Origin: Candidatus Dadabacteria bacterium
GTDB taxonomy: Bacteria; Desulfobacterota_D; UBA1144; Nemesobacterales; JADFKM01
Assembly: GCA_022564935.1 (NCBI GenBank)
Contig: JADFKM010000003.1
Span: 26,694 to 63,948 of the forward strand
DNA length: 37,255 nucleotides
Direction of reading: 5' to 3'
In this document: positions 482-33,413 of the stretch, one piece after another
Layout of the letters: each line of letters opens with the position of its first letter
Position numbering within the stretch: position 1 is the first letter of the stretch
Made by a program: the position numbers and the translations under genes
Notes under the pieces: generated by a model
What the model saw: only the letters and a program-made list of their open reading frames with translations
Databases searched by the model: none
What the model was told of the DNA's origin: nothing

Positions 482-2467
482 ATGCGTTTATTATTTAAGA
501 CTTTAATTATCACAGTTGTTGTAGCTGCAGCCGTAGCGCCGTTTCCCCAAATAGCTTCATCAACAGATGCTGAAAGGCCGGGTGATCCGTCTTATGCTTC
601 TGATAACGAGGGGATGAACCCCGGCGGAGAATCGCAGGTAATTGATCAAGATGCCGGTGAGCTTCACGAGCAGGAGCTTTACACCGAATCGTCCGGCACG
701 GAGGGGTATACGTACGAGGATCAAGGGACGGACTACGAACAGTCTCCGAGCGCCGTGGATAATGATCCTATTGATATGGTAAATATGGTTGAATCCATAG
801 GGTTTGAGGTGATGGAAGGTGTCGGGATTATAACCATAACCACAACGGCTCCTGTAGGTTACTCGGAGCTTCCCCATGAGATGAAAAAAATGGGGTTAAA
901 GATGGAGCAAGTTTTTCTACCCGCTGAGTTCAGGGTTTCAAGAGATGTAGGGGATTTTGACAGCCCTGTGAGTTTCATTTCCTCATTCGGTGATCCGGTA
1001 GCTGAAGACGAAGTGTTGGTGATAATAAACTTCAAAGAGGAAGTCGTCTACGAAGTTATTCAGGATCAGAATCACATTATGGTAAAGGTTGGAGAGCCAA
1101 AAAAAACCGAAGAGGAATTGGCCGAAGAGGAAATATATGAACAGTTGGAAGAAGAAGAACTCTGGGCGTTCGATTTCAGAGCCGCTACCGAGTTAGGACA
1201 AAGGAAGCAGTACAAAGGACAGCTGGTCTCCTTTGATTTTAAGAAGGCCCAGGTTAGGGATGTGCTGAGGATACTTGCCGACATAAGCGGATTTAACTTT
1301 GTTATAGCCCGCGGAGTAAAAGGCACCGTAACATTGAAGCTCTTAAATGTGCCCTGGGATTTGGCTCTCGATATAGTGCTTGAAGATGCGGGTCTTGGAG
1401 CAATCGTAGAGGGTAATGTTATAAAAGTGGCTCCTCATAAGACGCTCAGGGCTAGGCAGAATCAGCTTAAGCAGACTATAGAATCCAGAGAGAACACTGA
1501 GCCTCTTTTCACAAAGCAGTTGTTTGTTAACTACGCCAATGCATCTGAGATCAAGTCGCTCATCGCCACCATTTTAAGCGAACGCGGGGAGATTAAGATC
1601 GATACTCGCACAAACAGCCTGCTGATTACCGATACTCAAAGCCGTCTAGTTCAGGCTCAGGATATATTGCGCAAGCTGGACACCAGAACGGCTCAGGTGT
1701 TGATTGAGGCCAGGATCGTTCAGGCCACACTTGATTTCACCCGGGAGCTGGGTGTGCAGTGGGGCACGAATTTTAGAGCCTCACCCGCTACGGGTAACCC
1801 CACCAATGCGTTTTTCCCCTCCAGTGTTCAGGTAGGAGGAGTCGGGGTTGGCAATCCTGGCCCGTTCGGCTCTATAGGGGATAGCTTTATAATTGACCTC
1901 CCAGCCGCTGTGGGTACTGGCGCCGGCGGCGCATTGGGCATAGTTCTCGGCAGTCTTACCGGGGCTTTTGACCTGGATATCAGGCTGTCGGCCCTTGAGA
2001 CCAGAGGAGATGGAAGAATACTTTCTTCTCCTAAAATCTTAACACTGGACAACCATTTGGCGAGGATTGAGCAGGGTGTTTCCATACCGTTCCTCAGCGT
2101 ATCGGCCGCGGGTACTCAGACCCAGTTCGTAGATGCAACGCTCCGGCTGGAAGTAACGCCTCATGTCACTAGCGACGACCGTATCAATATGAAAATAAGG
2201 ATTACAGACAACGCCCCGGACCCGTCGATTACCGGGGCCAACGGCACACCTGCCATCAGGAGAAACGAGGCGGAGACCCAGGTTCTTGCCAGAGACGGGG
2301 AGACCATAGTGATAGGCGGCATTTTTTCCAGAACGACAGCTGAAAGCATGCGGGGGGTACCCTGGTTTTCTAAACTGCCGCTTCTGGGGTTTCTATTCAG
2401 CAACACGAGCAGGGTTGATGCGAGGAGAGAGCTTCTGGTGTTCATAACGCCGAGGATTATAAGGTAA
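482..2467 (+). CDS. pilQ: Type IV pilus secretin PilQ
   Basis: PilQ is the outer-membrane secretin ring through which the type IV pilus leaves the cell. The 661-residue protein has a signal peptide (residues 1 to about 27) and an acidic low-complexity stretch (about 28-105). An AMIN-like domain follows (about 105-205), then an STN/N0 domain (about 245-320, VSFDFKKAQVRDVLRILAD) and a secretin N1-type domain (about 345-410). The C-terminal secretin domain contains GRILSSPKILTLDN and the final LLFSNTSRVDARRELLVFITPRI segment. A strong Shine-Dalgarno (AAGGAGGCGAGG) precedes the ATG. It follows pilP, as in the standard pilus operon. The acidic stretch between the signal and AMIN is longer than in textbook PilQ. 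Function is secure by family; pilus activity in this organism is inferred. Confidence 0.95.
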   Translation: MRLLFKTLIITVVVAAAVAPFPQIASSTDAERPGDPSYASDNEGMNPGGESQVIDQDAGELHEQELYTESSGTEGYTYEDQGTDYEQSPSAVDNDPIDMVNMVESIGFEVMEGVGIITITTTAPVGYSELPHEMKKMGLKMEQVFLPAEFRVSRDVGDFDSPVSFISSFGDPVAEDEVLVIINFKEEVVYEVIQDQNHIMVKVGEPKKTEEELAEEEIYEQLEEEELWAFDFRAATELGQRKQYKGQLVSFDFKKAQVRDVLRILADISGFNFVIARGVKGTVTLKLLNVPWDLALDIVLEDAGLGAIVEGNVIKVAPHKTLRARQNQLKQTIESRENTEPLFTKQLFVNYANASEIKSLIATILSERGEIKIDTRTNSLLITDTQSRLVQAQDILRKLDTRTAQVLIEARIVQATLDFTRELGVQWGTNFRASPATGNPTNAFFPSSVQVGGVGVGNPGPFGSIGDSFIIDLPAAVGTGAGGALGIVLGSLTGAFDLDIRLSALETRGDGRILSSPKILTLDNHLARIEQGVSIPFLSVSAAGTQTQFVDATLRLEVTPHVTSDDRINMKIRITDNAPDPSITGANGTPAIRRNEAETQVLARDGETIVIGGIFSRTTAESMRGVPWFSKLPLLGFLFSNTSRVDARRELLVFITPRIIR

Positions 2468-2502
2468 TTCAATCCAACCATGAATCAGAGAAGGAGAAAT
2501 AT

Positions 2503-3051
2503 ATGAATAGGAACACTATAGGATTAGCGATTTTTCCAATTGTGATTGTTTTAGCGGTGGCGTTGGGCATCAGTTGTGTCGGTCCAAACCCCGCCGATGC
2601 CCCTTTCGGCTCCACAGTCATATTCATAGAAGAACCACTAGATTTTGAGATTCCTCTTGATTCCCAAATTCTGATAACCGCCGCCGCGGTGGTTCTTGAC
2701 CCCGAAGGCTTCCCGATTAACGATATTAAGGTCGACTGGAGACTCACCTTTGCGAATCAAAACGACCTTGTTGCAGATACCGACGGCGACGGCATCGCCG
2801 ATTCACACAAGCTCCAGTTCGTCGACCCGGATGCGTGCGAAGAAGTGGGGCTCGATTGCGAAGAGGTGGATTCTTCACTGTATCCCGGGTTCGGCGCCCT
2901 CAAGGATTCTCCGCTTAGGCTGTTGACCGACAACCGGGGCGTTACGCGTGTTCTCATATTGGCATTTGGAGATTTTCCCGTAGACCCGGCGTCTCTTACT
3001 GTTTCTATTAATACGGCTGCCGAAACTGTGGAATTCAGCGTGACTAATTAG
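2503..3051 (+). CDS. Predicted lipoprotein, function unknown, downstream of pilQ
   Basis: I do not recognise this 182-residue protein. It starts with a hydrophobic signal ending in a lipobox-like GISC with Cys25, so it is probably lipidated and exported. The -3 position is Gly rather than the usual Leu, and the next gene shows the same variant (GLSC). The mature part is acidic and beta-rich, with a DTDGDGIADSHKLQF loop (about residues 86-100) that resembles Ca2+-binding thrombospondin type-3 or EF-hand loops. A good ribosome-binding site (AGAAGGAG) lies before the ATG, 35 bp after pilQ, so co-transcription with the pilus operon is likely. A role at the pilus exit site is only an inference from position. 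Confidence 0.75.
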   Translation: MNRNTIGLAIFPIVIVLAVALGISCVGPNPADAPFGSTVIFIEEPLDFEIPLDSQILITAAAVVLDPEGFPINDIKVDWRLTFANQNDLVADTDGDGIADSHKLQFVDPDACEEVGLDCEEVDSSLYPGFGALKDSPLRLLTDNRGVTRVLILAFGDFPVDPASLTVSINTAAETVEFSVTN

Positions 3052-3095
3052 TAATAAATGGTCGACATATAATATATAGGAGGGCGAATAATCTA

Positions 3096-4619
3096 GTGCA
3101 GAAATTAATAAAGGGTATCAAAACCAACATGGTGTTAAGGTTATTGATGATATTTATATCAACCGGGTTGGTCGTTGCGGTAGGGCTTTCCTGCAATGAC
3201 AGCCGAACCCCGCAAAACCCGTCCAGAAACCCGATTCTTGGAATAATAGGCATATTCTTCGAAGGTACGGGGATTGATCCTGATACATTGCTTCCCACCC
3301 TTGAAGGAAATGCGTGCGAGGACAGAGTGGTTAGAGTTGAAGTGAACGAGGAGTTCCCCGACGGCTCGGTGGTAGAATTTTCTATCGGCGGTGTGGACAT
3401 TGGCGTAGCTGGGTGTCTGTTTGATGCCTCTTCCTTTATCATCAACGGCCAGGCGTTTGCGACTTATTTGCCATTCCCTAATCTTACGGACGTTATTCAG
3501 AACGTGGCTATTGCAGTTACCATTACGACTCCCGACGGGTTCTCCCAATCAGACTTTACTCAGGTAATAGTAGAACCCGTCTTTTTGGTTGCTCAAGACG
3601 ATAGCGCGAGTCTAACAGTCCCATTCTGTCCTAATGACGTTCCTACAACAATTGTTTTAACTTTCGATGCCATGGGACTTGAGAACTGCGGCGACCTTTC
3701 CGTTTCCTTTGACCGTTCCCTGGGCACAATAACGGCTATCGGCCCCCTAGGCGATACAATCACAATAGGTTATACGGCCAAAAACGGCGCCGGCGGAATC
3801 CAGATAATCACTATTACAATAGTTCTGCCCAATCCGGCTAGCGTTGACCCGAGCTGCCCGAACGTCCCGCTTGCAGACCGCACAATATTTGCTACTGTGG
3901 TTATAGAGCAGACCGTTGGCGAGGCCCCAACGGACGATGAAGGTTTTGTAGACTGTTCGGGAGTGATCGGGCCAGTGCCCACTGAAGCGCAGTGTACCGA
4001 CGGCCTCGACAACGACGCCGACGGCGCCATCGACTGCGACGACGGCGACTGCGCAGCAGACCCGATTTGCGAGTTCCCCGAAGCTACCTGCGATGATGGT
4101 TTTGATAACGATGCAGATGGCGACATTGATTGCGCCGATACGGATGATTGCAGTGGCAGTGGTTTCTGTGGGCCTGAATCCGATGCCGCATTTTGTTCCG
4201 ATTTTGTGGACAACGATGCCGACGGGGATATTGACTGTGAAGACGCGGACTGCGATATGGTTGACATAGGTGGCGGCATAGAATGTGAGTTCGGTACAGA
4301 AACAGGCACCAATTGTGATGACACCTTCGACAATGACGCAGACGGATTGGTAGACTGCGAAGAGTTGAGCTGTAATGGAGAAGATGGTGAACCTGGAGCT
4401 GGAATGGATACTTGTCAATTCAATTTCGAGATTGACTGCGATGACGAATTCGACAACGATGCCGATGGGTTAGAAGATTGTCTCGATCCTAATTGCGACG
4501 GGCAAGACGGTGATCCGAGTGATGGAGCCGTTTGCGAGTTCGGTACGGAGACACTCTGTGCCGACGGGTTCGACAACGACGGCGACGGTCTTATTGACGG
4601 CGCCGATTCTGACTGTTGA
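3096..4619 (+). CDS. Predicted lipoprotein with six C-terminal Cys-rich DNDADG repeats
   Basis: This is a 507-residue exported protein of unknown function. The GTG start is chosen because AGGAGGG sits 10 bp upstream; an ATG at 3129 is an alternative. A hydrophobic signal ends in GLSC (Cys33), matching the GISC of the preceding lipoprotein. Residues 70-290 look like beta-sandwich modules (VVRVEVNEEFPDGSVVEFSI and similar). Residues 300-507 are six imperfect repeats of the form CxDGxDNDADGxxDCxDxxC, beginning near residues 300, 332, 367, 407, 448 and 488. Such repeats are common in surface proteins of delta-proteobacteria-like groups and resemble Ca2+-binding loops; the paired cysteines suggest disulfides. 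There is no C-terminal sorting tail. It is likely the last gene of the pilus operon, since a terminator follows. A surface or adhesin role is an inference. Confidence 0.8.
   Translation: MQKLIKGIKTNMVLRLLMIFISTGLVVAVGLSCNDSRTPQNPSRNPILGIIGIFFEGTGIDPDTLLPTLEGNACEDRVVRVEVNEEFPDGSVVEFSIGGVDIGVAGCLFDASSFIINGQAFATYLPFPNLTDVIQNVAIAVTITTPDGFSQSDFTQVIVEPVFLVAQDDSASLTVPFCPNDVPTTIVLTFDAMGLENCGDLSVSFDRSLGTITAIGPLGDTITIGYTAKNGAGGIQIITITIVLPNPASVDPSCPNVPLADRTIFATVVIEQTVGEAPTDDEGFVDCSGVIGPVPTEAQCTDGLDNDADGAIDCDDGDCAADPICEFPEATCDDGFDNDADGDIDCADTDDCSGSGFCGPESDAAFCSDFVDNDADGDIDCEDADCDMVDIGGGIECEFGTETGTNCDDTFDNDADGLVDCEELSCNGEDGEPGAGMDTCQFNFEIDCDDEFDNDADGLEDCLDPNCDGQDGDPSDGAVCEFGTETLCADGFDNDGDGLIDGADSDC
3993..4616 (+). 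repeat. Six coding repeats, DNDADG/Cys type
   Basis: Six 21-24-residue units with variable linkers share the core DNDADG (DNDGDG in the last unit), an upstream Cys and downstream C...C. The last unit has DGADSDC where the others have DC, so it lacks one Cys. The DNA copies are diverged at synonymous sites, so this is an old repeat array and not a recent slippage product. Confidence 0.85.
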
Positions 4620-4682
4620 TGTTAAACTGAATAAAGCAGTAAACAAACGGTTTAATTCATAAGAGTTAAACTGAGATTTTGT

Positions 4683-4729
4683 AGAGCATAGCGGCCACCG
4701 AGATTTAGTCGCTATGCTCTTTCTTTTGT
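4683..4729 (+). terminator. Rho-independent terminator after the pilus/lipoprotein operon
   Basis: A perfect 11-bp stem (AGAGCATAGCG at 4683-4693 pairing with CGCTATGCTCT at 4710-4720), a 16-nt loop and a T-rich tail (TTTCTTTTGTTGTT) lie 64 bp after the last lipoprotein stop codon. It separates the pilus operon from the acyl-CoA genes. Confidence 0.8.
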
Positions 4730-4765
4730 TGTTCTTTTCTCGCTCCCTTTATTGTTCCATTCTCC

Positions 4766-4794
4766 TTGACTTGATACCCATATTTTTGTTTAAT
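4766..4794 (+). promoter_or_regulatory. Candidate sigma-70 promoter for the acyl-CoA dehydrogenase/mutase genes
   Basis: TTGACT (4766-4771), a 17-bp spacer and TTTAAT (4789-4794) match the -35/-10 consensus at 5/6 each. It lies just after the upstream terminator and would give a leader of roughly 190 nt before the ATG at 4994. The remaining intergenic DNA (4620-4993) is AT-rich. It holds a 10-bp direct repeat GTTAAACTGA (4621 and 4665) and two CGTTTAAA boxes 22 bp apart (4839 and 4861); I see no gene in it. Confidence 0.5.
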
Positions 4795-4955
4795 AGATAG
4801 GTGCTTGATTTTGGGCAAGAGAGGATGGTGAGTTCTGTCGTTTAAAATCTTTTTTCTTTACGTTTAAACGGTATATTTATATCCAGGGTATCATCTCTTT
4901 CCCTTTTGTTTGGAATGCGTATAAACGCCATGAAATATAGTTCATTAATCGGCAG

Positions 4956-4986
4956 GAGCTAATTACCGAGGAACTAATTACGAGGA
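4956..4986 (+). repeat. Tandem 15-bp leader duplication carrying the ribosome-binding site
   Basis: GAGCTAATTACCGAG is followed directly by GAACTAATTACGAG, so the Shine-Dalgarno-like GAGGA occurs twice, at 4968-4972 and 4982-4986. Only the second copy is correctly spaced for the ATG at 4994. Confidence 0.6.
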
Positions 4987-4993
4987 GCGGCAA

Positions 4994-6142
4994 ATGAGCA
5001 TCGTCGAGCTTACCGAAGAGCACCGCATGATACAGTCTGTGGCGAAGGAATTCGCCGAGACCGAGATAAAGCCCGTGGCGGCGAGGCTCGACAGGAGGAG
5101 TGAGTTCCCCGCCGAGCTAATACAGAGCATGGCGGAGCTTGGGTTCATGGGCATTTACATTCCCGAGGAGTACGGCGGCAGCGCCATGGACGTTTTCAGC
5201 TACACGCTCGCGCTTGAGGAGATATGCAAGGCATGCGCCTCCACGGGGACGATAATGTCGGTAAACAACTCCCTAGTGTGCGACCCGATACTGGAGTTCG
5301 GAACCCTGGCGCAGAAAGAGGAGTACCTCACCCCGCTTGCAAGGGGAGAGAGCCTGGGCTGCTTTGCGCTCAGTGAGCCGGCCGCCGGCTCCGACGCTGG
5401 CAGTATAAGAACCACCGTCAGGCGCGACGGAGACAATTACGTCCTGAGCGGCACGAAGAACTGGATAACAAACGGCCCTGAGGCCGATGTGATAATAACG
5501 TTTGCCACACACGACCCATCGAAGAAGCATAAAGCAATTACGGCGTTCATTGTGGATAAAGAAACTCCGAGGTTAAACGTCGGGAAAATCGAAGAGAAGC
5601 TCGGCATAAAGGCTTCGAGCACGTGTCAGCTGATGTTTGACGACTGCTACGTGCCGGTGAGGAACAGGCTGGGGGAAGAGGGAGAGGGATTCAAGATCGC
5701 TATGAACACCCTGAACGGCGGGAGAATCGGCATTGGAGCCCAGGCAGTGGGTATAGCACAGGCAGCATTTGAGGAATCCGTTTCCTACGCTAAGCAGAGA
5801 GAGGCCTTTGATAAACCTATTTCCAATTTACAGGCCATTCAGTTTATGCTCTCTGATATGGCCACAAAAATAGAGGCATCGAGACTGCTGGTCTGGCAGG
5901 CGGCGAAAATGAAAGACCAGAAGATGAACTACGTCAAACAGTCCGCAATGGCCAAGCTGTTTGCTTCCGAGGCGGCGATGTGGGTCACGACAAAAGCGAT
6001 ACAGGTTCACGGGGGCTACGGGTATACGACCGATTATCCTGTTGAGAGGCACTTCAGGGACGCAAAGATTACCGAGATTTACGAGGGCACGTCCGAAATC
6101 CAGAGACTCATTATAGCAAACCAGCTGTTAAATGAGTACTGA
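4994..6142 (+). CDS. Acyl-CoA dehydrogenase, short-chain (butyryl/isobutyryl-type)
   Basis: This FAD enzyme introduces the alpha-beta double bond in an acyl-CoA and passes electrons to ETF. At 382 residues it has the normal family length. The N-terminal helical domain contains the [12 protein letters not shown] segment typical of short-chain members. The FAD/substrate signature [13 protein letters not shown] (about 127-139) and GTKNWITNG (about 152-160) are intact. The C-terminal catalytic base is Glu364 in [15 protein letters not shown]. The start follows GAGGAG by 7 bp. The acyl-CoA mutase genes follow after 52 bp in the same direction, and that mutase has an isobutyryl-CoA-type active site. 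A C4 substrate (butyryl- or isobutyryl-CoA) is therefore a reasonable inference, but chain length cannot be fixed from sequence alone. Confidence 0.93.
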
Positions 6143-29785: not shown

Positions 29786-29814
29786 TTGTCAATTTGTTGC
29801 AACACTAGTATCAT
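29786..29814 (+). promoter_or_regulatory. Promoter of the AT-rich three-gene operon
   Basis: TTGTCA (29786-29791), a 17-bp spacer and TATCAT (29809-29814) match consensus at 5/6 each. Transcription would start near 29821, leaving a 15-nt leader to GTG 29836 or 27 nt to ATG 29848. The rest of the 249-bp gap after bioD is AT-rich with no gene I can support. Confidence 0.55.
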
Positions 29815-29835
29815 TACAACCTATATAGGGAGTTT

Positions 29836-30504
29836 GTGACACCGAGGATGGTTAATAACAAGGCTGAAATAGAAGGACATAGCATAGTCTTAGTTGGTGA
29901 TTTTAATACAAAGATATTTCAACCTGCATGGTTTGGTAGGGAAAAACTTATTCAAAAGTCTGAAGAAAATCAAGCGAAGATTGAAATTATTCATCCTGAG
30001 GTTGTTAGTTTTGAGAGTAATTGGTTAAATATTAGAGTGACACGGGAGAGATTTAAAGTTTCTACCACACAAGCATCTTTTTATGAATCTCTTAGAGATT
30101 TAGTATTAGGTACATTTCTACTTCTTAGACATACACCTATTCGAATGATGGGCATTAATTATGATATGCATTTTCGAATGGATTCTGTAGAACAATGGCA
30201 CTCTTTTGGGAATCTATTAACACCAAAAGAACTGTGGGATGGAATTCTTAACAAGCCTGGAATGCGAAGTTTGACTATGGAAAGCGTACGACCTGATGGA
30301 TTCAAGGGATATATTCGTGTTAGTGTTGAGCCGTCTATTAAAGTAGAGCCGGGTGTATACTTTTTTGTGAATGATCATTTTGAAGTTGGCAATTCAGAAA
30401 AATCGATTGGTATAGATGAAATCATTGACATCTTGCAAAATCATTGGGTTACGTCTACTGAAAGATCAAAATCAATTATTGAGTCTTTATTGGAAAAAGC
30501 ATGA
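29836..30504 (+). CDS. Unknown protein, first gene of AT-rich MBL operon
   Basis: This is a 222-residue soluble protein with no signal or membrane segment; I do not recognise a named family. The N-terminal part reads IVLVGDFNTKIFQPAWFGRE, the middle is rich in alternating strands and helices (VVSFESNWLNIRVTRERF), and a basic core follows (TFLLLRHTPIRMMGINYDMHF). Next come SLTMESVRPDG and an acidic PGVYFFVNDHFEVG segment. The start is GTG 29836 or ATG 29848; AGGGAG at 29827-29832 is poorly spaced for both. Codon usage is strongly A/T-ending, unlike bioD upstream. Its stop overlaps the next gene's ATG by 4 bp, indicating translational coupling and a joint function. Confidence 0.8.
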   Translation: MTPRMVNNKAEIEGHSIVLVGDFNTKIFQPAWFGREKLIQKSEENQAKIEIIHPEVVSFESNWLNIRVTRERFKVSTTQASFYESLRDLVLGTFLLLRHTPIRMMGINYDMHFRMDSVEQWHSFGNLLTPKELWDGILNKPGMRSLTMESVRPDGFKGYIRVSVEPSIKVEPGVYFFVNDHFEVGNSEKSIGIDEIIDILQNHWVTSTERSKSIIESLLEKA

Positions 30505-31094
30505 AACTAGAAGCAGTTAATCAAAGCTCTTTTTTTGAAGAAGAAAAACAAAAATTTCCATCAGAAAAACCTTATGAACTTTTTATGGGTTCTGATCCTA
30601 AAGACATGATTTCTGAAGAAAAAATCCGTTCATATTTGGAGGATGCAGAATCAGATTCAGATTATGAGAGCACATCGACAAAACAAGCTATGGGTATTTC
30701 AGGCAACTTTTTAGAGGAAATTAAAGAAAATCCTGTAGCTATAATCACTAAACAACCATCTATACCAGATACATTCATTTCATTGCAAAAATGGGAGGGC
30801 ACTGTACTCAGTGTAAAAAAGGACTACTTTGAGGCAAGGTTAGTTGACTTTACTGGAAATGGCCCTGATGAAATAGCTGAGTTTTCTATAAATGAAGTTT
30901 CTGCTGATGATTTGGAACTTCTCCATTTAGGTGCCGTTTTTTACTGGAACATTGGCTACCACAATATAAAGGGCGGTCAAAGGTTAAGGTCTTCAATAAT
31001 TAGGTTTAGACGTTTGCCGGCTTGGACTCATACAGAAATTCAGAGGTCGGAACAGGAAGCAGAAGAATTAATGAAATCTATCAAGACTGAATAA
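30501..31094 (+). CDS. Unknown protein, second gene of AT-rich MBL operon
   Basis: The 197-residue protein begins in an ATGA overlap with the preceding gene. Residues 1-85 are acidic and probably disordered (EEEKQKF, EDAESDSDYESTS). Residues about 95-170 look like a small beta-barrel: WEGTVLSVKKDYFEARLVDF, a short acidic turn, then LLHLGAVFYWNIGYH and SSIIRFRRLPAW. The C-terminus is a charged helix (QRSEQEAEELMKS). There is no catalytic motif that I can see. The form suggests an adaptor or regulator binding its neighbours, which is an inference. Next to the metallo-beta-lactamase-fold gene it leaves a gap of only 1 nt. Confidence 0.8.
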   Translation: MKLEAVNQSSFFEEEKQKFPSEKPYELFMGSDPKDMISEEKIRSYLEDAESDSDYESTSTKQAMGISGNFLEEIKENPVAIITKQPSIPDTFISLQKWEGTVLSVKKDYFEARLVDFTGNGPDEIAEFSINEVSADDLELLHLGAVFYWNIGYHNIKGGQRLRSSIIRFRRLPAWTHTEIQRSEQEAEELMKSIKTE

Positions 31095-31095
31095 C

Positions 31096-32178
31096 ATGGA
31101 AAGGGCTCCACTCGATTCTGAAGTTGAAGTATCTATTTTTGGCCCAGGTTATGGAGAGAGTTTATTATTACACCTTGGGAATAATGATTGGGTAATAGTT
31201 GATTCATGTATTGATTCCAAAAACAAAGTCCCTGCACCTTTAAATTACTTGCATAGCATTGACATCGATCCTGCCTCAAGTGTGAAACTTATAGTAGCTA
31301 CCCATTGGCATGATGATCACATTAGAGGTTTAAGTTCCATTGTAGAAGAATGTACATCAGCTGATTTTGCATTTTCTTCAGCACTTAGATCAGAAGAATT
31401 TTTTACGTTAATAAGTTTGTATGGACGAGGATCAATGATGAAAAGTTCGGGTGTAGATGAATTTTATAAAATTATTAAATTACTGAATGAGCGAGATAAA
31501 GTTGTAAAACTGGCATCAGAAAATAAGTGTTTAATGAGAGTTGGTTCTCGCGAAATCCACGCATTGTCTCCTTCAGATTATTCTGTTTTATCAGCAACGA
31601 TCCAATTAGCAAACCTGCTCCCAGAAGTCAAAATACCAAAAAGACGAGTGTTATCGCAAAAACCTAATCATGTATCAGTTGTATTGCAAGTGATAATTGA
31701 GAATTTATGTATATTGCTTGGTGCTGACCTTGAGGAGATTGGTGATCGCAGAGCAGGCTGGACTAACATTATTAATTCTCAGACGCGAATACAGAAAAAA
31801 GCATGTGTATTCAAAATTCCTCATCATGGTTCTAAAAGTGCTCATTTAGAATCTATTTGGTCTGAAATGGTTTATCCTAACCCAATCTCACTTCTAACAC
31901 CTTTTACTCTAGGTAAACAACTTCCTACAAGAAAAGACATCAGGAGAATTTGTAGTAAAACAGACCGGGCTTATATTACAGCTAAACCCCAATGGGGTAA
32001 AAGAATCAGAAGATCACATACTGTAGAAAAAACAATTCGTGAGACGGTACGTAATATTAAAGCCGAGAACCAAGAAGTAGGTCAGATAAGAATTAGACTT
32101 GATCATTCTGAAATAGGTGGTGAATGGACTGTCAAAATGACAGACAATGCATTGAATCTTGCCAGTCTAAATAGTTGA
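31096..32178 (+). CDS. ComEC-like metallo-beta-lactamase-fold hydrolase
   Basis: The 360-residue soluble protein has a metallo-beta-lactamase-type nuclease/phosphodiesterase signature: VIVDSC (33-38), ATHWHDDHIRGL with H70-x-H72-x-D74-H75, and NHVSVVL (191-197). LLGADLEE (Asp211) and FKIPHHGSKSAH (His243/244) follow. This pattern matches the C-terminal hydrolase domain of the DNA-uptake protein ComEC/Rec2, but no membrane segments are present. About 110 C-terminal residues beyond the core are basic (KRIRRSH) and may bind nucleic acid. It is the third gene of the AT-rich operon, 1 nt after the second. Such stand-alone enzymes act on nucleic acids or other phosphodiesters; the substrate here is unknown. 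Confidence 0.88.
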   Translation: MERAPLDSEVEVSIFGPGYGESLLLHLGNNDWVIVDSCIDSKNKVPAPLNYLHSIDIDPASSVKLIVATHWHDDHIRGLSSIVEECTSADFAFSSALRSEEFFTLISLYGRGSMMKSSGVDEFYKIIKLLNERDKVVKLASENKCLMRVGSREIHALSPSDYSVLSATIQLANLLPEVKIPKRRVLSQKPNHVSVVLQVIIENLCILLGADLEEIGDRRAGWTNIINSQTRIQKKACVFKIPHHGSKSAHLESIWSEMVYPNPISLLTPFTLGKQLPTRKDIRRICSKTDRAYITAKPQWGKRIRRSHTVEKTIRETVRNIKAENQEVGQIRIRLDHSEIGGEWTVKMTDNALNLASLNS

Positions 32179-32185
32179 TAGAGGA

Positions 32186-32226
32186 AGTATCGGATGGCTA
32201 CTTAAGTAAAGATACTCGTTTTTCGT
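32186..32226 (+). terminator. Possible terminator of the AT-rich operon
   Basis: AGTATC (32186-32191) pairs with GATACT (32211-32216) around a 19-nt loop that itself contains the palindrome ACTTAAGT. A T-rich tail CGTTTTTCGTTTG follows. It starts 8 nt after the last stop codon. The stem is short. Confidence 0.4.
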
Positions 32227-32481: not shown

Positions 32482-33039
32482 TTACTTCTGCGCTTCCTCG
32501 CGGATGTGTCTTTGAACCTCCTCCCATAGTTCCATAGAGCCGGACGTTATGGGACTTATGGAGGTCGTGGGAATCAGCGGGATGAAATGGACGCCCTTCT
32601 TCGTGTGGCATGTGACGCAGCTCGCGTAGAGCCTTCCGAATGCGGCCTGAAACTTATCGGGGTCGTGAGAATCTATAGCCTTGATGAGACCGGGGTAATT
32701 GGCGGAAATAAGCCCTTCGATGGCATGTCTTCTGGACGTATCGACCAGAGCCGCTTTTTGCAGATTTTCTTTGATCTTCAAAGCCTCGTGCTTGGCGTAT
32801 TCCCATTGTCCCCTGCTGCCCCCCACATACAGCTCGTTGAGACGGATTCCAGTCCACAGCATAAAGTCGGCGTAAGAGGGCTGGATGAGTCCCAGCTGGT
32901 AAACCCTGTCTTTGGTTGAGCCCTTGAGCCAGGTAGGCGGCGGCGGTGAATAATATGCGACGTCACTTGAGAACGCGGCAAAGATCCCGAATACGAAGAT
33001 AAAGATCAAAGAGGAAGTAAGAACTCTTCTACCAATCAT
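32482..33039 (-). CDS. Exported monohaem cytochrome c, helical (c'-like)
   Basis: The protein has 185 residues from ATG 33039, chosen because GGGAGGTG lies 6 bp upstream. A signal peptide or anchor (about 5-24, LIFIFVFGIFAAF) is followed by a proline stretch (SPPPPTW) and predicted amphipathic helices (about 55-140). A single haem motif CVTCH (141-145) lies near the C-terminus. Helices before a late CxxCH recall cytochrome c', but the 40 residues after the motif (GVHFIPLIPTTS...) are unusual. It is divergent from the alternative complex III operon across a 374-bp gap, so a role as periplasmic electron carrier with that complex is a reasonable inference. Confidence 0.82.
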   Translation of the reverse strand: MIGRRVLTSSLIFIFVFGIFAAFSSDVAYYSPPPPTWLKGSTKDRVYQLGLIQPSYADFMLWTGIRLNELYVGGSRGQWEYAKHEALKIKENLQKAALVDTSRRHAIEGLISANYPGLIKAIDSHDPDKFQAAFGRLYASCVTCHTKKGVHFIPLIPTTSISPITSGSMELWEEVQRHIREEAQK

Positions 33040-33413
33040 AAAACACCTCCCTGAAATTTTCCATAACCACCTTACATTAATAATATAGCAAGTAGTTACT
33101 TCCTTTTCCATAGCTCCTAGTCATAATTCACTATCTGAGACTGCCGCCCCCGAGAGGCTTGTCGTGGATTAGTTGCAACTAGTCGCAAGCAGTGGTTAGA
33201 ATTTGACCGGAGGAGTAAACCAGGGGGCTATTTTAAGGGGAATTGTGCCGGGGATGACATCGTAGAGGGTTTCTCCGCCCCGAAAATCTTGTCTACTTAC
33301 CATGTATTGGTTCTTGACAGAACTATTGAGTATGATATTAATTTTAAGATTTTTTTTCTGGATGGAGATTTTTCTCCGGCCTGACTCGCAGCACATAGCT
33401 TAGGAAAATTTAG
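33040..33413 (+). promoter_or_regulatory. Divergent regulatory region between cytochrome gene and act operon
   Basis: This is a 374-bp gap. Toward act: TTGACA at 33314-33319 with a candidate -10 ATTAAT at 33337-33342 (17-bp spacer, 4/6), followed by a poly-T stretch near 33351 and a small hairpin (GGAGA/TCTCC near 33364-33377). A palindromic GTTGCAAC lies at 33172. I see no supported gene; a 66-codon minus-strand frame at 33196-33396 lacks a ribosome-binding site. Confidence 0.4.

Follow-up and report, generated by a model that had tools for sequence, protein, structure and literature searches.

The window, i.e. the whole stretch of DNA of 37,255 nucleotides that was analyzed, contains three tightly packed genes that encode two proteins, designated P1 and P2, and a metallo-beta-lactamase (MBL) fold hydrolase. 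Together, they form a real, widely distributed and horizontally moving three-gene unit, which combines an effector of a known kind with two new protein families. Overall, the trio is best explained as a mobile anti-phage module in which two partners control an MBL nuclease, a reading for which the arguments somewhat outweigh those against it. About 20 phyla harbour the trio, which also occurs on plasmids and in prophages, but neither P1 nor P2 can be assigned to a named family of Pfam, NCBIfam or PADLOC.

The coordinates of the three genes and of the features within them are summarized in Table 1. In the ORF listing, P1 and P2 share four base pairs in an ATGA overlap, and P2 and MBL are separated by a single nucleotide, so that the dense packing described in the sequence-only reading is borne out. 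The GC content of the trio was 0.357, compared to 0.513 +/- 0.036 for 214 segments of equal size from the same genome, the lowest of which had a value of 0.418. The GC3 values of P1, P2 and MBL were 0.25, 0.27 and 0.23, respectively, versus 0.63 +/- 0.08 for 147 ORFs of the same genome, none of which was below 0.33. The genomic values were sampled from 20 stretches of the source genome. The preference for A/T-ending codons that had been noted before is thus genuine, and the trio is clearly foreign in composition. In contrast, an own promoter and a possible terminator, which had also been proposed, could not be substantiated. Only one candidate site was retained, and it was graded weak because the number of sigma-70-like sites in the trio region (three) did not exceed chance, but was lower than in shuffled sequences (8.6). 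No terminator-like site was found in the trio region.

Table 1. Coordinates of the trio genes, of the candidate promoter and of conserved MBL motifs in the window
Feature	Position	Strand	Remarks
P1	29836..30504	+	222 aa; alternative ATG start at 29848; presumed sensor/regulator core
P2	30501..31094	+	197 aa; presumed adaptor or inhibitor
MBL-fold hydrolase	31096..32178	+	360 aa; relative of the ComEC nuclease domain; presumed effector
Candidate sigma-70-like promoter TTGTCA-17-TATCAT	29786..29814	+	10/12 consensus match; weak
HxHxDH metal-binding motif	31303..31320	+	H70, D74 and H75 in 105/105 homologues; H72 in 104/105
NHVSVVL motif	31666..31686	+	N191 in 105/105; aligned to ComEC NNNSLVL
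D211 of the LLGADLE motif	31726..31728	+	Presumed metal ligand; 105/105
PHHGS motif (H243/H244)	31819..31833	+	H244 and G245 in 105/105; H243 in 104/105; aligned to ComEC KVPHHGS

Next, the locus was compared with the corresponding regions of relatives. The trio was missing from the interval that separates bioD from the cytochrome gene in 14 of 14 relatives of the same order, all of which have kept the gene order Tpx - DUF59-like protein - (Bcp) - bioD - cytochrome - Act molybdoprotein-like gene. Because the site is empty in all of these relatives, the trio is an insert that was acquired at this locus, and the horizontal acquisition that had been claimed is supported by both the empty sites and the foreign composition. 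Convincing flanking direct repeats that would mark the insertion were not found. In one relative (genome G008) the site is empty and the trio is present elsewhere in the genome; within the order, the presence of the trio is patchy and restricted to four genomes. An ordinary housekeeping operon that is vertically inherited in this lineage would have been revealed by the trio occupying this locus in all relatives. No support for such an operon was found, the empty sites and the composition refute it, the patchy presence also speaks against it, and we regard it as practically ruled out. A cytochrome-like gene on the reverse strand (32482-33111) separates the trio from the cytochrome/Act genes; it resembles native genes in composition, and it had no match in the regions of the 14 relatives that were examined.

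Relatives of the trio were sought in viral contigs, genomes and plasmids using the MBL as query, which yielded 109 loci after de-duplication. The complete P1-P2-MBL arrangement was present in the same order in 104 of them, where the genes overlap by a median of 4 and 10 bp, and in four of the five incomplete loci the trio was situated at a contig end. To avoid the bias of a search starting from the MBL, the P1, P2 and MBL profiles were also run separately on 387 genomes. Strong matches to the three profiles were found in exactly the same seven genomes, and the genes were located side by side. Genes scattered separately among relatives would have refuted the original proposal, but they were found together. 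A tree of 76 MBL sequences spans 20 phyla, which are mixed such that Pseudomonadota alone requires 14 label changes; the MBL of the window groups with copies from Nitrospirota, Myxococcota and Thermodesulfobacteriota. One complete trio (L074) is on a contig labelled as a Thermoplasmata archaeon, for which both a genuine transfer and a mis-binned contig are possible.

The MBL passed the cut-off of the Pfam family Lactamase_B, its profile matched ComEC nuclease structures with an E-value of 2.5e-12, and the PADLOC model RTasMBL (DRT-associated MBL) aligned to residues 13-254 with an E-value of 2.4e-11. The motifs that had been recognized in the sequence, HxHxDH, NHVSVVL and PHHGS, are all present and conserved across 105 homologues. 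The protein shares the HxHxDH, N...V(V)L and PHHGS motifs with ComEC/Rec2, but it differs in being a stand-alone protein with obligate P1 and P2 partners. In the profile alignment, which did not resolve this further, the region between HxHxDH and N191 appears to be longer than in ComEC. Membership in three named families was rejected: the scores were 18.8 bits versus a cut-off of 190.05 for TIGR00361 (ComEC_Rec2), 13.1 bits versus 420 for NF041809 (AVAST type 1), and 22.2 bits versus 220 for NF058524 of the 6A-MBL anti-phage system, which also employs an MBL-fold defence effector. In one homologue (L037:1486-2586, reverse strand) THWDTDH replaces THWHDDH, which changes the second metal-binding histidine, and this copy might be a natural variant or an inactive form of the effector. 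Since the conserved columns of P1 and P2 do not suggest an enzyme, the MBL is the only likely enzyme of the trio. It most likely degrades DNA, although this nuclease activity is inferred.

The MBL superfamily also includes phosphodiesterases. Therefore, the enzyme could instead act on a nucleotide signal or on the nucleotide pool, possibly as a phage counter-defence, and the many copies in prophages would be compatible with this reading. However, the closest matches of the MBL are nuclease domains, many copies reside in cellular defence loci rather than in phages, and a search of 50,697 deposited phage records with P1, P2 and MBL did not retrieve any match. We thus rate a phosphodiesterase as very improbable and retain a DNA-degrading MBL as the working assumption.

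P1 and P2 matched no family of Pfam, NCBIfam or PADLOC, in line with the earlier statement that two of the products lack a recognized motif, and no convincing Pfam match was obtained for any of 88 P1 or 97 P2 homologues. No protease family was detected in these 88 and 97 members, nor was a catalytic triad present in the conserved columns. The structures of both proteins were predicted using alignments from which plasmid-derived rows had been left out. The model of P1 is confident (pLDDT 95) and has a two-part alpha/beta fold. The best Foldseek match in the PDB would make it AdoMetDC/prozyme-like (E=8e-5), but the TM value was only 0.33, so that no such claim is made and the fold is left unassigned; TIGR04255 was also discarded as the family of P1 (hhalign probability 0.6%). 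The order of helices and strands suggested an internal duplication, but none was found when profiles of the two halves were compared. P1 appears to represent a new fold family.

The model of P2 is of low confidence for residues 1-75, with pLDDT values of about 50-58 for residues 1-70, and, judged from this model, the N-terminal 75 residues are probably disordered. They are followed by a five-stranded OB-like beta-barrel (residues 91-169) and a C-terminal helix (residues 177-194), so that the description of this product as disordered plus a small barrel agrees with the prediction. Structural matches of the barrel were weak, with E-values of at least 7e-3, and were mostly OB folds, i.e. the OB domain of LysRS, exosome, CST and SSB, several of which are nucleic-acid-binding. 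The weak resemblance to OB folds that bind single-stranded DNA, together with the ComEC-like nuclease domain, would also suit a constitutively active complex. In it, P2 would bind (single-stranded) DNA, and the MBL would degrade DNA that enters from phages, from plasmids or by transformation, with the cell surviving, much as the ComEC domain degrades the strand that is not translocated. Such a DNA-entry nuclease appears improbable to us, because a unit without a methylase has no obvious means of sparing the host DNA and because the known defence relatives are gated proenzymes.

The genomic contexts of the trio were inspected for links to defence. In five prophages that resemble phage P2 (L016, L018, L022, L024 and L031), the trio is located between the portal/terminase genes and the replication gene A; for L024, the Pfam families Phage_portal, Terminase and Phage_GPA were confirmed beside it. 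This position between the portal gene and gene A is a hotspot for defence genes in P2 prophages (Vassallo et al., PMC9519451). The trio is present in 14 of 5,426 complete E. coli genomes, where it occupies the interval between the holin gene and the antiterminator gene Q of a lambdoid prophage on the strand opposite to the phage genes, and Phage_antitermQ was identified next to the trio of L017. Plasmid copies were found in Adhaeribacter and Pantoea. The clearest example of a further context is L076, in which the trio lies on the same strand inside a DUF499 ATPase - DUF7680 - [trio] - DUF1156 methylase - PLD/Snf2 helicase arrangement. The same or partial DUF499/DUF1156 layouts surround the trio at L070, L078, L096, L113 and L072. 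These layouts resemble BREX-related systems, which act against invaders and for which the text on auxiliary effectors does not mention an MBL (PMC12839542). In several of these DUF499/DUF1156/helicase systems (Hma; 'BREX-related', PMC12839542) the trio is embedded as an extra cassette, but it mostly occurs without them.

Two RefSeq records of E. coli label P1 (WP_000143147.1) as 'anti-phage protein'. None of the NCBIfam models matched this E. coli P1 convincingly, and therefore the name rests on something else. Its origin could not be traced by an accession search or in the main text of DefensePredictor, the supplements of which were not included. A PADLOC scan of the neighbours detected DISARM-, BREX- and restriction-type genes, but only at a minority of the loci, and matches were likewise obtained for 113 control proteins; a general enrichment in defence islands is therefore suggested but not proven. 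No named system covering the trio was found in the family libraries and the literature searched, and a family that covers all three genes, which would have refuted the original proposal, did not emerge. 'Undescribed' is nevertheless used with a caveat, because the source of the RefSeq name may already have tested a relative. Taken together, the hotspot, the embedding in DUF499/DUF1156 systems and the RefSeq label are in favour of the defence reading of the earlier note, and we consider it probable that the trio serves as a mobile module for defence against phages. This remains an inference from contexts, and no experiment on the function of the trio was found in the literature searched. As the E. 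coli reference-collection strain ECOR29 carries a prophage copy at 3762481-3764881 of NZ_CP197071.1, protection and mechanism are directly testable in laboratory E. coli.

For a defence module of this kind, the following mechanism can be envisaged. In uninfected cells, the MBL would be held inactive or unassembled by P1 and P2. P2, with its presumably disordered tail and OB-like barrel, may be an effector-specific adaptor or inhibitor, and P1, which is common to other cassettes (see below), may be a sensor or a stabilizer of P2. Upon detection of a phage signal by P1, its contact with P2 would change and the nuclease would be set free to destroy the phage DNA and probably also the DNA of the host. 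This specific wiring was drawn by analogy: the direction of inhibition, the trigger and the outcome are all inferred, and we regard it as doubtful.

Two known systems served as points of comparison. In other defence systems, MBL nucleases are gated DNases, which destroy DNA once they have been cut by a partner protease (PMC12799240). Like the trio, the trypsin-MBL module of Hachiman (HamM), AVAST type 1, Lamassu and DRT places a ComEC-like MBL effector in mobile defence loci, but there a trypsin-like protease is fused to a defence enzyme and the MBL gene is upstream of this fusion (PMC12799240), whereas the trio has its MBL gene last and no trypsin-like protease was identified next to it. In the absence of an identified protease, the MBL of the trio is more likely to be gated by binding. 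The second system, CmdTAC, is likewise a three-gene unit, in which a chaperone senses the phage capsid, a labile antitoxin is released and the toxin is set free (PMC11618068). A sensor/stabilizer, a labile adaptor and a toxic effector are proposed for the trio in the same way. However, CmdTAC contains a SecB-like chaperone and an ADP-ribosyltransferase effector, whereas P1 showed no resemblance to SecB, the trio has an MBL as its effector, and its genes are arranged in the opposite order. As SecB was absent from the 50 matches listed in the P1 fold search, the analogy to the chaperone is a functional one only.

The strict P1 profile also matched, weakly, proteins in genomes without P2 and MBL. 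A comparison of the P1 proteins of the trio with 19 of these P1-like relatives yielded an hhalign probability of 99.3% and an E-value of 1.8e-20 over 212 columns. P1-like proteins head other cassettes, in which they are followed by a polar middle protein, which is probably disordered, and a different third protein. The third gene encodes a PIN domain at L171:1486-3237 (Pfam, 2.7e-5). It was read by eye from the sequence alone as PIN-like at L184:1486-3015 and L189:358-2169 and as retropepsin-like, with a D-T-G motif, at L175:1228-2904 and L190:1483-3147. No relation of the middle and third proteins of these cassettes to P2 or MBL was detectable.

The occurrence of PIN, a classical toxin of toxin-antitoxin systems, in P1-superfamily cassettes raises the possibility that the trio is purely an addiction module, with the MBL as toxin and P2 together with P1 as antitoxin, which would stabilize prophages, plasmids and islands and for which defence would be incidental. 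The contexts in mobile elements and the tight, overlapping operon are in accordance with this explanation. It would not account for the repeated occurrence of the trio at an established hotspot for defence genes and within DUF499/DUF1156 systems or for the RefSeq name 'anti-phage protein', and three genes are conserved instead of two. We consider pure addiction unlikely, although it cannot be dismissed, and continue to prefer the anti-phage module.

That relatives of P1 are combined with differing third genes suggests a shared core with exchangeable effectors. P1 might be the common core of undescribed three-gene conflict systems, in which it is joined by a disordered middle protein and by a third protein that can be exchanged (MBL, PIN, retropepsin-like and others), i.e. 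a sensor with interchangeable adaptor-effector pairs, and stand-alone P1 genes in front of secreted-toxin-like genes would then link phage defence with polymorphic toxins. We judge this generalization to be possible, with the chances slightly against it. If it is true, one regulator can drive DNA-, RNA- or protein-cutting outcomes, and a P1 that is a shared sensor with exchangeable effectors offers a handle for finding further systems.

Several additional arrangements were observed in the wider P1 superfamily. The G008 genome contains three distinct P1-superfamily cassettes (L037, L174 and L175), only one of which has P2 and MBL. A P1-like three-gene cassette (L198:2492-4242) is flanked by the R and S subunit genes of a type I restriction system; it is carried by a Picosynechococcus plasmid of 18 kb. 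On many cyanobacterial plasmids (L193-L195, L197, L199, L200, L202, L203 and L204, around positions 2460-5650), a P1-like gene is located upstream of a giant gene of roughly 9-35 kb. The annotations of these giant genes comprise CARDB/Ig-domain, polymorphic membrane, peptidase S8 and colicin E3/pyocin S6-like proteins, and one of them is annotated as a cytotoxin of the colicin E3/pyocin S6 family.
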